Positions 2,700-63,178 of a stretch of 64,000 bases of DNA are shown piece after piece. Position numbers and translations under genes: made by a program. Origin of the DNA: Epinephelus fuscoguttatus (Eukaryota; Chordata; Actinopteri; Perciformes; Serranidae); assembly GCF_011397635.1 (NCBI RefSeq), contig NC_064767.1:4481001-4545000 (forward strand). The letters are read 5' to 3'. The notes beneath the pieces were generated by a model. That model was given only the letters and a program-made list of their open reading frames with translations, did no database searches and had not been told where the DNA came from. Positions within the stretch are counted from its first letter, which is position 1; the number at the start of each line of letters is the position of its first letter.

Positions 2700-3890
2700 C
2701 TTCTTTGTCGATTGCTGCAGCCTAAATGTTTCTATCATATATATTCAGGCATATTTATGTTAATTGAACAAACTGAAAAAGGTCCAAAAGAAGGAGAAGT
2801 CTGGTAAAATTTAACCAACATGATCCAGACACCAACAACAACGCTTGAAACTAAGGAAAGAGAACTTATTTGGACCAACATGCACCATGTGACCAATAAA
2901 AGACCTGAAAACAAACAAAAACAGAACCATTAAAACAAAAACCATAATGACTACAAACTGCTCTTACTGTACTCCGTGCAGATAAACAATCATTGTTATC
3001 CTTGTCTCAGAACAACATCTCTGCAGTTGAGATAAATCGTTGTTAATCGTACTTTAAGTATTTGTGCTCTGATGCTTTACAAAGACATTTCACATGTGTG
3101 ATTTAAGAGCTGCATATGAACTATCTTCCATTTATAAATCTATTTATTTTCCCTTTTATAAATCAGATGAGTCATATCATGGGTTAACACATTGGTTTAT
3201 GTTATGTAATGCAGGTTTTCGCCGGTAACCTCTCATGACCCTGCGTGTTCACGCACATACACACACATTCAAATGAATTCATTGTATTGTAGCCATGTGT
3301 GACCTTCAGGCCTGATGAAGAACTGAGCTGTCACTGATAATTACGGCTCATCGATCGTCCTGTAATTTAAGGGCTAAGTGTGCTGTTATGCCGCAGATAT
3401 CTGACAGCATTGATGTTTCTCATGCAGTTTCCAGCACATGGTGACCCAATGTGCTCCTCTCTTTTTCAGCATCTTACTCTCAGAGCTTATTGTCAGCAGT
3501 CGGATTATCTGTCACCTCAAAACACAGGTGCAAAAACAGGAACGCTTGAAACAGAGTAAACTCTTCTATTTTTTGCTTCAACGTTGCAGAACTGAACGTG
3601 CGTGAGAACATCATCAGCTTGATAAAACCTTAGTGTTTGTAATAATACTGGCAATTTGTCAGGTTTTTGATGATTATGATGACATTTGCGAATGATTATT
3701 TCAGATGACGGTGCACACTCACACAGAGTTTCATGCTATACATGCAGAGTGTCTCACTACACACCTTTGAGCCCACACACCTCTGCGAAGGTGCTCCGAG
3801 CGCAGTCTTTCACAAACTGAATATACTGTATCTACATAGAAGCAGTCTGACCTGTCAGGGTGTTTATCTGCCTGCAGCAACAGGTGGACA
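2700..3890. other. no gene recognised
   Basis: Intergenic AT-rich DNA. I see no frame with splice support, no terminal inverted repeats and no RNA gene. Confidence 0.5.
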
Positions 3891-3898
3891 ATGTTCAC

Positions 3899-4312
3899 AA
3901 ATGTCGGCATTGTACGTTTCCACAAACCACAGATTTGTTACATTTGTGCATTTCATATATATCATAAACATTTCTTAAGTGACGTAACATATATCATGTG
4001 ACTTCACCTGAGACTTCAGAGAGATGCCTGCCAGGCTGCAGACCACTGTTGAAGACCAACAAACAACAAAACCAGATGTTTTAGTGAGTCATTGCTGTTT
4101 CCAGAGACAATTGTGGTACCAAAACCGGGTATTTTAAGCCAAAACATGATCCTTTTCTAAGCACCTCCAAATGTTGTTTGTATCTAAACCCAACCACACA
4201 TTAACCTCAAGGTTTTCAAAACATAAAGTATAAAGTTTCAACATGTCTGCCACATAATCACAAAGAAACGTTACATATCTGTGGTTTGTAGAAATGTACA
4301 ATGCCAACATTT
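3899..4312. mobile_element. foldback MITE family B, full copy
   Basis: About 45-bp terminal inverted arms: AATGTCGGCATTGTACGTTT on the left, and on the right the complementary GAAATGTACAATGCCAACAT. The interior carries AAACCGGGTATTTTAAGCC, which recurs in other copies. Related copies lie at 34910-35200 and 58925-59197, and fragments at 20235-20400, 23320-23545 and 32880-33050. It is non-coding; the superfamily cannot be told from the ends alone. Confidence 0.6.
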
Positions 4313-4810
4313 GTTGTTGTGATTGTGTCGATATTTAAGTGGCAAGCTGACACTGAATTATTCTCTTTTTCCACAACCATTTTTTAAAAAAGAAAAATCT
4401 AATTTCAGAGTAAATAGCCATACGAAAATAAATGAATCCTACATTATTCACTCTGATATGAATGTCAAAAGCCTAAGATTTAAGCACATACGTGACACTT
4501 TAACTTTATAGTCGTCGTTTCAGTTCAGATTCAATGATCTTTACACAGTGAAAAACTTTGTACTGATGCTGTCTGACTGCAGCGTGTCTCCAACACAGTC
4601 AGTTCAGTTGAGCCCCACATCAGTGTGAGCTGTTAATTGTTTTGAACGCTCTGTACTTTTGAATACGAGCATTGAGTGAGAGATTTATTTTTGGAATCTG
4701 TTTTTCCTAAAACTGAACCGGGTGGATTGTTGAGATGCTTCAGAGGCACAGACACACCCAGCCTCAGGCCTGTCGCTCTGGTGTCTCTGTCAAAGTCACA
4801 ACAGACACGT

Positions 4811-4816
4811 CATAAA
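4811..4816 (+). promoter_or_regulatory. possible TATA-like box of the small peptide gene
   Basis: CATAAA sits about 30 bp upstream of the likely transcription start of the non-coding first exon (about 4840). It is a weak match, supported mainly by its position. Confidence 0.2.
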
Positions 4817-4839
4817 CTGTAACTTCCCTGTTGAAGACC

Positions 4840-4876
4840 GACTCACAGACTCCTGCTGCTGCGTTTAACAGCGAAG
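4840..4876 (+). other. likely non-coding exon 1 of the small peptide gene
   Basis: The sequence ends in a strong donor, GCGAAG|GTGAGT, at 4876/4877. The next acceptor (GTCTTTTAG at 4978) lies three bases before the ATG at 4982, so a 5' untranslated exon is needed to start the transcript. Its 5' limit is a guess. Confidence 0.45.
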
Positions 4877-4981
4877 GTGAGTTATTATTCTAAATCTCTT
4901 TTTAAGCTTTTACAGACAATAAAAAAGGATCGTTAATCTTGGCAGACGATTGTGCTAAACCTGTGTGTTGTCTTTTAGAAA

Positions 4982-5690
4982 ATGAGAGTTCAGGTTGTGC
5001 TCCTGCTCTTTGCTCTGGTGGTTGCGCTTCAAGCGATGCCAACTGCTCCCCATAGGGACCATAAAGGTATTCATGTGTGTGTGCCTGTGTGAGAACGTCT
5101 TAGTTTGAGTCTTGTCGATATGCTTGAGTTGCACAAACCAAAAACTTTGTGGATTTGGTACTGACGGCACCTGTATTCTCATTTTACAGTTATTCCAGAT
5201 TACATTTTTGAGAGAGGGGAGGCTGATCCAACCAACTCAAAGACCAAGGACAACAATAACAACAACAATAACAACACTTTAAACCTTTTGCAATATGGTG
5301 AGTATTGCGGTAACATGCATTAACATGCATTAACAGTATTTTAACGTGAAAGCTGTTTGATGTGGAGCTCATTTTAAATGCTTTATATAATCTGAGGTGA
5401 TTAAATCCAAACACAGCATCATCATTTATATAAATATCAAATATTTTGTTTGTAAATATCTGAGAGGTAACTAAAGCTGTCACATAAATGAGGTAAATTA
5501 TAATATGTGATGATACCAGATGTAGTACATTACAGAGAGGGGGTTTCAGAAGCAGAATCCTCTCTGTGTCTCCACAGCAGAGCTGATAGTAACTCAGAAA
5601 CATACTTGAGAGTGTGTTGTGTTCACTGTAAATAGTTCTTGTAACAAAAAGCTCTGAACTTGTTTTGCAGGACAAGATGTCCATCAGTGA
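4982..5690 (+). CDS. small secreted peptide, unknown family (spliced, 70 aa)
   Basis: I assembled this gene from frame and splice sites: coding exons 4982-5066, 5190-5297 and 5671-5690. Both introns are phase 1, with donors AAAG|GTATTC and ATATG|GTGAGT and acceptors ATTTTACAG and TTTTGCAG. The protein begins MRVQVVLLLFALVVALQA, a clear signal peptide with probable cleavage after Ala18. The mature part is about 52 residues and includes VIPDYIFERGEADPTNSKTK, then eight asparagines, then TLNLLQYGQDVHQ and a stop. It has no cysteines, no dibasic cleavage sites and no membrane segment, so it is probably an exported peptide or small matrix protein. A poly(A) signal follows closely. I do not recognise the family. 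SCPP genes also make small secreted acidic proteins, but their introns are phase 0, which argues against that family. Confidence 0.7.
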
Positions 5691-5763
5691 CGATGAAGGG
5701 AAATGGCTTTAAAAACAGACCCATAACTTTAACCCCAAACTGTTTCAGCCAAAAGATGTCATA

Positions 5764-5773
5764 AATAAATAAA
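5764..5773 (+). terminator. poly(A) signal of the small peptide gene
   Basis: Overlapping AATAAA hexamers lie about 75 bp after the stop codon and are followed at 5789-5813 by a GT-rich stretch (TGTCTTTGTGTTGATTATG). This is the usual arrangement for cleavage and polyadenylation near 5785. Confidence 0.6.
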
Positions 5774-5828
5774 CAAAATAATTGCATATATGTCTTTGTG
5801 TTGATTATGTTTCTATATACATACAGCT

Positions 5829-5856
5829 TATAGATAGATAGATAGATAGATTGATA
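5829..5856. repeat. (GATA)n microsatellite
   Basis: About seven TAGA/GATA tetranucleotide units, slightly interrupted at the right end. Confidence 0.8.
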
Positions 5857-6299
5857 GAGACCCAGAGACAAACCGAGTTAGCTAATTTGCAATATATAAA
5901 TATGTGTTGCCATTTATTTTAGACCTCTATTATTCATTCATTCATTTACTTTTGTTTATTTATTTTGTTTTTACTTTTTTAAATTTAATTAATTTCATTT
6001 TATTTCTTTATTTACTTTTATTATTATTATTTTTTTATTTCCCAGTAACCCAGTGAGGCATTAATGACACAGCCTTATAAATATTAACCCATGGCTTTTA
6101 ATTTGTCGCCCTCTGGTGGCTCAATCATGTCTTCACAAACTGCGGCTGTTGTCAACAGTTAAGTTCAGTCACTTCACACCTGTTCAGTATGTTGAGGGCC
6201 AAATTATTGGGGACATGATCTGAAGGTTTGTAGGAGACAGAGACGGAAAAACAAGCAGGAAACTTTAAAGTCGCTGTATGTTCAGGTTACAGTTACACA

Positions 6300-6620
6300 C
6301 ATGTCATCAGTGTGTTTCTCCTCGGCCTGAAGAAAGTTGCTGGTCGCCGGTAGCCGCCATCTGCAGCCTGCTGGCCGGTCAGAGACTGCCCCCTTCCTCG
6401 GTGTCGTCCAACTGAACCGCAACATTGTTCCACCACCGGTTCTTCTTCTCTCCTGTTCTTCTTCAGCTGTCAGCAGGGGGCGACATGCGCTCCTCAGCGG
6501 GACTGCCTGCTGTCATCTTCCCCGGGACCGACGCAGGTCCAGCCAGCTCCAAAGGGGGGAGCCTGAGGGGGTCCAGGCGTACAGGTAGAGGCAGTGGAAA
6601 GAGACTGTTATAAAACTTTA
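6300..6620. other. GC-rich island, possible promoter or first exon
   Basis: A roughly 300-bp GC- and CpG-rich patch in AT-rich surroundings, with GCCGCCATC, CCGGTCAG and CAGCAGGGGGCGACATGCGC. Both strands have short ATG-started frames (plus: MRSSAGLPAVIFPGTDAG from 6485, ending near a GT at 6585; minus: MLRFSWTTPRKGAVSD). Neither has a recognisable product or a second exon that I could join to it. The motif CAGCAGGGGGCG resembles a CTCF-type core. It could be a CpG-island promoter, an insulator or an old retrogene; nothing here decides between them. Confidence 0.3.
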
Positions 6621-6779
6621 AAATATGAGTGTTCTTTTTATTACATGATTAGTCAAAGTGACTCATTCATTCTTTTTTATTTGTTGTTGTTTTTTTACTT
6701 TAAGCAATGTGCCAAAGTTATGTTTCCGGTTCAAAATAAAATACCGAGCAATAAAAGTGCTTACAGAGGGAAGATTTAA

Positions 6780-8070
6780 TTGACATGCAAGGGTGTTGGT
6801 TTCATTTTAACATTGGTGGGGACACATATTGGGGGTGGGGCGTCTCAGGGTCTTTTTCCCAGAAAATTTTGGGTGGAACTTTCTTTATTTATGTGAAGAA
6901 AAACACAAAATTCAGGTGACTTTAAAATATGAAAATAGGCTAATATAGAATATAATGCAGTAATGCTCTCAGACATTCGGCATATTTATTCTCCTGGAGA
7001 TCAACTCCTCTCATTTAATGTTATCGCTGCTGAGTCAACATACCTGTAGGTGTGATTTACTCTTCATTTGTGTCTTTTGTTTGGAGAATAACCTTTAAAT
7101 TTGCACCTATTCAGGGATACATTAATTTCAGTGGACTTTAATAGCTCATGTGTGTTTCAGATTTCTGATCATGTTCAGGACTTTCTGCACATTCAAAACA
7201 TATCCTACATATCTGCATTCTCTGAGACAATGGAAATAAAGTTATATTTGTTATAACTTAACTTATGAAGTATGTTGTTGGAGATGGTCTATCTTTGGTC
7301 TGTGAAAGAGAGACAGAAAACTCTGTCACGTGCTTTTTCCACTCATGTCAGTGGCTGCAATGGTCCAAATGCTTTGTTTCTGTTGGATATACAAGTGAGA
7401 GTTTTTAAATATTCTTCTAATATTGTCATAAATACCTGATGACATGAGGTTATTACGAGATTTATATTTATCTTGTTAATGACAGTGTCTTTGCAGTGGA
7501 TTGGTGAAGCAGCAGGAAAGAAAATAGTCTTTGACAGACACCTCAGCGTTAACAATATTCTTTTATTTTTCTATTACAAATCAACAGTGAGCAAGGGGAT
7601 ATATACATGTAAGATGATGAAACACAGAGCATTAAAATACATTTCAAGGAATACTTCAGTTACAAAATTAATTTTTCTTGCACGTCTCTGTGGTGAACAA
7701 AGAATCCAAAAACATTCTTGATGAATTGAAGTGAAAAGGAGACTGCGTTTAACAACAGCAAAACTTTATGAAAACATCTGTTTAGTACTTCCTGAACACC
7801 TTTAACTCAAATATTACTACTGACTATTTGCATAAATAGTCTGGTGCATGGATGAGCAGCTCACCTCAACAACTCAAGGGCAGAGTTAAACATGCAGAGA
7901 ACACACATGCCCCGGGGCCACACGTGCAACTCCTAGAAGTGTTGAAGTACAGAGTGTACAACTGGATAAAGGACACTTGGTTTATGCTGCACACCTTGTG
8001 TGGGCATTTGTAAAAGGATGTTTCGATATAGTTTTGCAGTCCCCTAAACTTCAGTTCATCAATAATGTTA
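6780..8070. other. no gene recognised
   Basis: AT-rich intergenic DNA. A TTTATT at 7561-7566 would be a minus-strand poly(A) signal but has no gene attached. Confidence 0.4.
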
Positions 8071-9253: not shown

Positions 9254-12186
9254 CTAACTCAAGAAGAATGAAGTATAAGGTCCGGGAAACCCATAATGTG
9301 ATGTCCTCATAGCAGGACACAGGGTCTCAGGAGGATAAGGAAAGTACGTTCTGTAGCAGTACCAGCAGGGTTGTGGACCGGGTGCATGCAGATTTGTGCA
9401 GGGTGCATTAGGGGCCTGTTGGGGTGTGTGGAGCATCGAGGGACAAGGGACAGGAAGTGTGTGCAGAGGTGGTGGTGACCTTTGACACCGAGCTATGGGA
9501 GGAGAAAAGCATTGAGGTTGTTGTTGGTATGACAGCTGGTGTTGCTGCGATGTTAGTTGTGACCACTGTTGCCACAGTAACCCCGTCTGCTGCCACTGAA
9601 ACGGCTGTGGACGCTCCACACTGTTGATTCCTTCCTGCCCTTTTCCCTTGCTTTGCCCTGTTTTCTCCACCTCTTCCTCCTCCTCTCTCCCAGACAGCTG
9701 CTGTTTGACAATGTAGAAGGCGTTATCATTGTTGTCTTGTTTTTGGGACAACACCTGCAGGTGGAGGGTGGAGACGGCAGTGTGAGGGTGTGGCAGGAGG
9801 GACAGAGGGGTCAGGTGAGGAACAGGGGAATTCGGCAAGGAGGAAGAATTGATGAGTGGAGTCATTTTCTTGTTTTTAGCTTCCTGGATCTCCAACATCT
9901 CCCCTCCGTCACCATCTTTTCCTCCAGATTCAGCATTTATATTACGTATTTCTGAGAAAGCCAGCTCAGAGCAGCTAGAGCGAGACTCTGCCTCTGTCTC
10001 CCAGTCCGCCTCTGATCCAGAGTCTTCAGCTGAGGAGCTGGACTCACTGTCGTCCCCCCAGCGAAGGTTGTAGCAGTGGGTACAGCGAGACAGACTGAGG
10101 AATTCAGGGCCTGAAACGGACTGGACAGAGAGGGAAACAAGTTAGGCAGACAGTCAGTTAGTTGTGAAGACATGTCAGCGGTTAAATTATTTATGACTCT
10201 TTGTCTCTGGCTTCAGCATCACCGTGGCATGCTGAGCTGCATTAAGTCCTTGGACTAAAACAGCAGAATTGGTGGTTTATGTTTGTAAACATGCACGCTA
10301 ACCCCACATTCACTCTGATTTCACATTTTTCACTTTTTTTTTTTTAAGTCTAATTTTGAAATCTTTAATCTGACTCTTTTTCCTTGACTGCTGTAACACT
10401 GGAATTTCTCAATTATGGGATCAATAAAGGTGTATCTTATCTTATCTTATCTTATCTTATCTTATGTTTTCCCCCCTATATTTGTGTTTTTATGCCTCCG
10501 CGCCAGTGATAGCCGTGTTCCAGGATTAACTGATTATTTTTGGCAGTCATTAATCAAAGGACAAGATCAAGGTCACTGTGGCCTTGCGTTCGTCTCAATC
10601 TTGTGAATGCAATATCTCCAGAAACCTTGAAGGAATTTCCTCAAATGTGGCCCAATCATCTGCTTGGACTCAAGAATGAACTAATTAGAACATGGTGATC
10701 AAAGGTCAAGGTTACTGTGACCTTGCAACCAGATATCTCAGGAACACCTTGAGGGAACTTCCTCAACTTTGGCACAAACATCCATTTAGACTCACAAATT
10801 AACTGATTAAAATTTGTTGGTCAGTGCAACCTCACAATAGCTCAAGAATTCATACGCTAATTATGACAAATTTGACACAAATGTCTTATCGGATAAAATG
10901 ATGAAGTGGTCAAAGGTCACCTTCACTGTGACATCATAATGTTCTGCATAAAACACTATTCTGGCTATTACTTAACGTACATACACAATATCTCAGCGAC
11001 AGAAATGGAGACATTTGGTCAAATACCAATTTTGGTTGTCTACCTTCAAACTGTGCTAATTGTATAGATTGTCTGCCGCGAGGAAGATGTGTGTGAAGCA
11101 TCCATGCTTTCACAGACATGCTTATGGTCTTGCAACCCATTGCTACCTTTTTATAAAGCCTCGACCTCATCTGAGCGCTGTGGGGGGACACTCACACAAA
11201 CTACCCGAGCACAGAAAATTAGAAAATACAGGCAGAGGGTAGAGAAATACACAACCACACACTGAGAGTGGGACATAATGATTGAAGGGATTACCTCTGT
11301 ATGAGTCTACACATTGTTTTACAGGGAAAATCCTGCATAGTTTATCTTTAACTGCAGCTGTGTGAGATCAGAAAACGACCAGTGTCCTTCTGTTGATCTT
11401 GGCATCAGACTAGAGAACACTTCAGTGTGTTGTAGATCCGGCATAACTAGAATTAGTCTGGAGCCTCAGTTCAGTTTCTGTTTCCAAGAAGTGTCATCCT
11501 GGTGTAGACCGAATTGCCTCCAGACACAACTGGATAGACCAATAAGAGCAATGCAACGTGTCTGACCCGTGAGCGACAGCCAAATGTAAACAGACCCCAG
11601 TGCTGTTTCCTGCTGTAGTGTTAGCGACCGAACGAGCTCAACGACATGGCCCGACGCAAGTTTGACGCTGAATATATTGAACTGTGTGGACCGTAAACCA
11701 ATGACTTTGAATAAATCTGGACCCCGTGGCTGGAACAGTTGGTAACCACTGTTCTAGTTTATACTCGGCACAGATGTTCCTGTACATGATCCCAGTCACT
11801 TGGTTATATCTCTCTGTGTACACTGTCCTAGCCTGCATCTTACATGATATATATTTTTTATATTTTAGTGTGGTATTACTCCTTTTACTGAAGTAAATGA
11901 TCAGTATTCTTCTTCCATGACTGAATCGCTTCCTAAAACAATTCCAGTGAAACAGATAGAAAATTTAAAAGTCTAAATTTTCAGTACCAGATTTCCTCTT
12001 TGTGCCTAAACAGACGTTTCCTTTCTAATCTGCAGTGGAGAGATACTAACAGGAAGTTATCAGTGTGTCACTTCATGTGTTAATGGCTACCTTTGGTTGT
12101 GTCAGACTGTCTTCACTCTGGTCCTCAGCGGAGCCTCCGGACTCAACCTGCTCCATCTCCGTCTCTGCACTCATCCCTCCCTCCAT
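9254..12186 (-). CDS. unrecognised two-exon gene, 320-aa acidic/Pro-Gln-Tyr-rich protein
   Basis: Coding exons are 12186-12091 (96 nt) and 10120-9254 (867 nt including the stop), joined in phase 0. The donor is CCAAAG|GTAGCC and the acceptor is CTCTCTGTCCAG. A second possible acceptor 10 nt further in (CCGTTTCAG) would break the frame. The product begins MEGGMSAETEMEQVESGGSA. Exon 2 then encodes a cysteine pair (CTHCYNLRWGDD), a Ser/Glu/Asp-rich acidic tract, the helical-looking GEMLEIQEAKNKKM, a Pro/His-rich middle, FYIVKQQL, a Gln/Trp-rich stretch (QPFQWQQTGLLWQQWSQL) and a Cys/Tyr/Pro-rich tail (CWYCYRTYFPYP) ending HYGFPGPYTSFFLS. There is no signal peptide or membrane segment, so it is likely intracellular and largely disordered. 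The HYGFPGP tail recalls an aromatic/proline motif I associate with the N-terminus of Bucky ball-type germ-plasm proteins, but the position differs and this is only a hint. The single intron (12090-10121) is packed with repeats. Confidence 0.7.
10388..10465 (+). repeat. LINE 3' tail with (TATCT)n
   Basis: GGGATCAATAAAGGTGTATC followed by about six CTTAT/TATCT units is the usual 3' end of fish non-LTR retrotransposons and their SINEs. It lies in the intron of the 320-aa gene, antisense to it. Confidence 0.6.
10466..11190 (-). repeat. nuclear-receptor-motif tandem repeat family, copy 1
   Basis: Matches the copies at 48395-49200 and 61340-62225, but in the reverse orientation. It has degenerate units of roughly 130 bp containing AAGGTCAAGGTTACTGTGAC and AGATATCTCAGGAACACC, and the head segment encodes the same shadow frame seen in the other copies (for example SVKAWMLHTHLP). 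It is non-coding. It lies in the intron of the 320-aa gene. Confidence 0.6.
11583..11751 (+). mobile_element. hAT-like (CAGTGGTTCC) MITE, 5'-truncated copy
   Basis: The right end, GGTAACCACTG, and an internal frame ATGGCCCGACGCAAGTTTGA (MARRKFDAEYIELCGP) match the copies at 23022-23279 and 24090-25162. The short frame resembles the start of ZBED/SCAND3-type hAT transposases (inference). The left end is missing or decayed. Confidence 0.5.

Positions 12187-41021: not shown

Positions 41022-63178
<22,157 letters not shown>

Follow-up and report, generated by a model that had tools for sequence, protein, structure and literature searches.

A candidate compact gene for a small secreted peptide downstream of epas1 in a fish genome

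Is the cluster of splice, signal-peptide and polyadenylation signals that fits into less than 1 kb, some 35 kb downstream of epas1, a real gene for a small secreted peptide, or does it only resemble one? The question is raised by the window C16:4481001-4545000, i.e. the whole stretch of 64 kb that was analyzed here. Its source is a fish genome whose 26 contigs add up to 1.047 Gb, that of a teleost to judge by size and gene content; positions are those of the window unless a contig or locus is named. The best account of the locus, which on the sequence evidence we consider probable, is a real and uncharacterised compact gene that has no detected paralogue and would encode a small secreted peptide.

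The gene model is placed on the plus strand and comprises four exons. Exon 1 (4840..4876, about 37 nt, with a putative start) is non-coding and ends in a donor of full consensus, AAG/GTGAGT. Exon 2 (4979..5066, 88 nt) has the ATG at 4982 and encodes the signal peptide (residues 1-18) followed by residues 19-28, ending in phase 1. Exon 3 (5190..5297, 108 nt) encodes the VIPDYIFERGEADP segment, the Asn run and LLQY, and it is symmetric because both coding introns are in phase 1. Exon 4 (5671..5785, about 115 nt, with a putative 3′ end) supplies GQDVHQ and a stop codon ending at 5690 and is mostly 3′ UTR; the polyadenylation signal AATAAA (5764..5769) starts 74 nt after the stop, and a GT-rich stretch is present downstream at about 5790-5803. 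The spliced coding sequence of 213 nt gives 70 amino acids and ends with a stop codon in exon 4. The ATG at 4982 is the first AUG of the predicted mRNA, three bases past the acceptor in the context AAAATGA, exon 1 having no ATG, and if either of the introns after exons 2 and 3 is retained, the frame runs into a stop codon. The preliminary description had reported this compact anatomy, with its exons, phase-1 introns, AATAAA and GT-rich element, and every element was re-derived at the same position.

A CATAAA-type box (GTCATAAA) at 4809..4816 on the plus strand lies some 25-30 nt upstream of the putative transcript start and is a weak candidate for a TATA-like element; it is one of 17 GYMATAAA sites in the window, both strands counted (0.27 per kb). 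One CDX-like site was also found, along with three RCGTG sites in 4300-4985 against about 1.2 predicted from the window rate; these promoter motifs are not usable because they are too common. On the minus strand an antisense open reading frame of 164 amino acids from its ATG (5190-5684) runs across exon 3 and intron 3; it has no Pfam match and was treated as a by-product of base composition.

The splice sites were scored with generic vertebrate matrices and ranked among all GT or AG sites on the plus strand of the window. The strong non-coding donor of the preliminary description is borne out, as the donor at 4876 stands within the top 0.07% of GT sites. The share of sites scoring at least as well is 9.5% and 0.3% for the donors of exons 2 and 3, and 6.1%, 0.7% and 2.2% for the acceptors of exons 2, 3 and 4. 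Both sites of exon 2 (acceptor at 4979, donor at 5066) are therefore unremarkable, and these two ordinary sites out of six speak for an explanation by chance, in which splice-like, hydrophobic and AATAAA signals have come together in A+T-rich DNA. The same explanation gains from the way the locus was found, since the earlier reader chose the top candidate from 64 kb.

Chance was evaluated by searching for chains made up of acceptor, ATG, signal peptide, donor, acceptor, donor, acceptor, stop and AATAAA; the relaxed rules dropped the AATAAA and allowed any phase and weaker sites, and 2000 dinucleotide-preserving shuffles of the window served as the null. The gene model is the top-scoring chain of the window on either strand. 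Under strict rules the window has two starting points, the locus scoring 38.7 and the other, at 3438, scoring 24.9; any chain at all appeared in 27 of the 2000 shuffles (best 38.5) and none of them reached 38.7. Under relaxed rules the locus scores 41.0 and the runner-up among five starting points 35.6, with chains in 1541 of the 2000 shuffles, scores of at least 38.7 in seven and a score above 41.0 in one. Another 196,239 bases of the same genome (2500 of them N) yielded no chain by the strict rules and 14 by the relaxed rules (best 33.1). The seven relaxed shuffles thus favour a chance assembly, but the strict rules gave nothing comparable in the shuffles or in the other genomic bases, and we regard such an assembly as very improbable. 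The model as a whole goes beyond chance on statistics that are good but not decisive, because the chain rules are post hoc, written after the model was seen, and flatter it.

The predicted product argues in the same direction. The signal peptide was called by a simple rule and not by a trained predictor; it has an uncharged hydrophobic core with a mean hydropathy of 3.66 leading up to the small residue A18. Cleavage at A18, as placed by rule, would leave a mature part of 52 of the 70 residues with a mass of 5990, a pI of 5.8 and a charge of about -2.2. A phase-1 intron lies shortly after the predicted cleavage site, which counts for a peptide gene, since extracts of PMC1626468 describe an excess of phase-1 introns near the cleavage site of signal-peptide proteins. 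The 70-residue precursor contains no cysteine and no dibasic site, so that the convertase sites characteristic of prohormone and neuropeptide precursors number 0 in 70 residues. Eight consecutive Asn residues are encoded by an imperfect AAC/AAT microsatellite at 5252-5275. AlphaFold2, run without an alignment on the 35 in-frame residues of exon 3, returned nearly all coil with a mean pLDDT of 60 and a pTM of 0.13; this low-confidence model is consistent with disorder and is no proof of it. Taken together, the signal peptide, the phased model and the use of the first AUG support the secreted-peptide reading that had been proposed from the sequence.

If the gene works as predicted, transcription would start near 4840 and three introns would be spliced out. 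The first AUG would open the precursor, whose 18-residue signal peptide would direct it to the ER, and signal peptidase would cleave after A18 to release an acidic, cysteine-free and largely unstructured peptide of 52 residues. Further cleavage by prohormone convertases is improbable because there are no dibasic sites, and the mature peptide probably acts as one extracellular chain. As a working mechanism, the VIPDYIFERGEADP segment may bind an extracellular partner as a short motif, and the run of Asn may lead to the C-terminal NLLQYGQDVHQ as a flexible spacer that is prone to slippage.

Codon usage points the other way. Synonymous usage was trained on 3476 codons from 12 of 30 GPCR loci; by this measure the gene scores -12 bits, a value matched or exceeded by 38.5% of the 187 open 70-codon frames of the window, and none of the 82 GPCR segments scored as low. 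Such a gene is at a disadvantage in this test, since third-position G+C is 74% in the GPCR exons and 49% in the gene. The coding status receives no support from codon usage, which counts against the peptide-gene reading. This score, which resembles that of the non-coding frames of the window, would agree with a dying gene or with a non-coding RNA that is spliced, the frame being fortuitous or no longer under selection, as would the microsatellite inside the frame and the lack of relatives in the same genome. Against this explanation stand the frame itself, which runs in phase from a strong signal peptide through two more exons and stops in the final one, and the Rfam search, which gave no match in 3500-7000. 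We consider it quite unlikely.

No family passed the curated Pfam cut-off with the 70-residue form, for which nothing was listed, and the mature part alone gave only PRS2_N (E 0.14, 12.3 bits against a cut-off of 27). NCBIfam also yielded no family for the 70-residue form, and among PDB sequences nothing rose above chance, with E 1.4 and 8.9 for the whole form and E 0.41 for a 31-residue piece. In the 1.047-Gb genome itself, protein and DNA searches revealed no convincing paralogue. The protein search returned two matches at the locus itself (exons 2 and 3) and four others with E 0.6 to 3.5. Two of these, L004 and L005, were rejected because their matches rest on Asn runs from microsatellites. 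The other two were also rejected: L006:1504-1569 on C5 resembles part of the core at about 48% over 23 residues with one gap and has two in-frame stops, and L007:1486-1626 on C11 aligns at 28% over 47 ungapped residues across the exon 2/3 junction and has one in-frame stop. No ATG with a strong hydrophobic core was found in the 1500 bases before either, and both are read as chance on their genome-wide E-values of 1.2 and 3.5. Judged by sequence, the resemblances are most likely chance, with a very old kinship still conceivable. The DNA search with 4979-5297 found the locus itself and 40 bases on C1, mainly Asn microsatellite. The earlier remark that the family is not recognised thus holds against Pfam, NCBIfam, PDB sequences and the same genome. 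The conserved look that it ascribed to the core is unsupported. As there is no relative in that genome, there is no sign of selection either, which counts against the peptide gene.

Alternatively, the locus may be orthologous to a small secreted protein or hormone precursor that is already known, but have diverged so strongly that profile searches no longer reach it; it would then work like its relative. Such a reading falls within the compact-gene account given above as a special case, and the odds of the two overlap. Short disordered peptides diverge fast, and this counts for it. The zebrafish secretin precedent, as given in excerpts of PMC12714231, also supports it, as old families can hide members, and it makes a hidden orthologue a serious possibility. 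The same searches in Pfam, NCBIfam and PDB sequences, with nothing above chance, weigh against it, and so does the absence of dibasic sites and cysteines, which are usual in hormone precursors. On balance we regard a hidden orthologue as rather unlikely, though worth serious attention.

The gene and epas1 are on opposite strands: epas1 is encoded on the minus strand, and the gene, on the plus strand, is found about 35 kb beyond the 3′ end of epas1. The epas1 locus named in the preliminary description is confirmed by the HIF-1 domain segment within 45512-46057, the C-terminal domain at C16:4522028-4522132 (window 41028-41132) and the bHLH exon outside the window at L043:637-915. PMC9789988 deals with the genes flanking epas1 and describes a truncated, N-terminal-only HIF2A copy in derived teleosts; the copy found here has the C-terminal domain and therefore is not the truncated copy described there. 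Another HIF C-terminal domain locus is present on C14.

Several other features were observed in the neighbourhood. On the minus strand, DDE_3 matches mark 51729-52763 and 53028-54045 as transposase-like; both are inside the epas1 span and hence presumably in epas1 introns. The longest of the listed open frames of the window, 295 codons on the minus strand (9257-10141), is Ser/Pro/Gln-rich with a CTHCYNLRW stretch; it has no Pfam match and only E about 0.6 in PDB, and may belong to an uncharacterised gene as one of its exons. Open frames on the plus strand at L040:132-1796, some 18-20 kb before the window begins, resemble exons of a membrane-protein gene, with weak similarity to Endomucin (E 0.0026, below the cut-off).

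The gene was not found in the published literature searched with its peptide strings, nor in literature on epas1 combined with small secreted peptide terms, and among the matches listed for small or orphan secreted peptides nothing concerned it. Extracts of PMC4568590, which provide method background on conserved small ORFs, do not mention it. Annotations elsewhere may already list the gene as an uncharacterised locus. It could also be the founder of an as yet undescribed peptide family that serves extracellular signalling in fish, lacks cysteines and convertase sites, acts via the IPDYIFERGEADP motif and is absent from tetrapods, but we hold this wider reading to be unlikely. If the gene is expressed and conserved, it enlarges the fish secretome by a secreted peptide that has no known relatives and is encoded close to a key hypoxia regulator, and the locus becomes an example of a compact gene type that homology-based annotation can lose; the gene alone settles no open question.

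The predicted product can be compared with known systems. Secretory calcium-binding phosphoproteins (SCPP) are small secreted disordered proteins of vertebrates, and the product predicted here is likewise small, secreted and disordered. The gene structure differs, as phase-0 introns are ubiquitous in SCPP genes according to extracts of PMC6732285, whereas both coding introns here are in phase 1. As described in part of PMC2830478, piscidin genes have four exons and three introns, one exon encoding both the signal peptide and the first part of the mature peptide; the present model shares this layout and a small secreted linear precursor, but the exon concerned is the first in piscidin genes and the second here. 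Mature piscidins, in the same extracts, are mostly shorter than 26 residues, with a high content of basic residues, Phe and Ile, unlike the 52-residue predicted peptide with its pI of 5.8 and charge of about -2. The zebrafish gene si:zfos-2372e4.1, previously unannotated, was recognised as secretin only via gar, shark and synteny (excerpts of PMC12714231), and the gene described here resembles it in being a small fish prepropeptide gene with no obvious relatives by simple search. For zebrafish secretin the peptides were seen by mass spectrometry and the orthology follows from synteny, whereas the present gene is predicted from its DNA, and the likeness is one of gene type.
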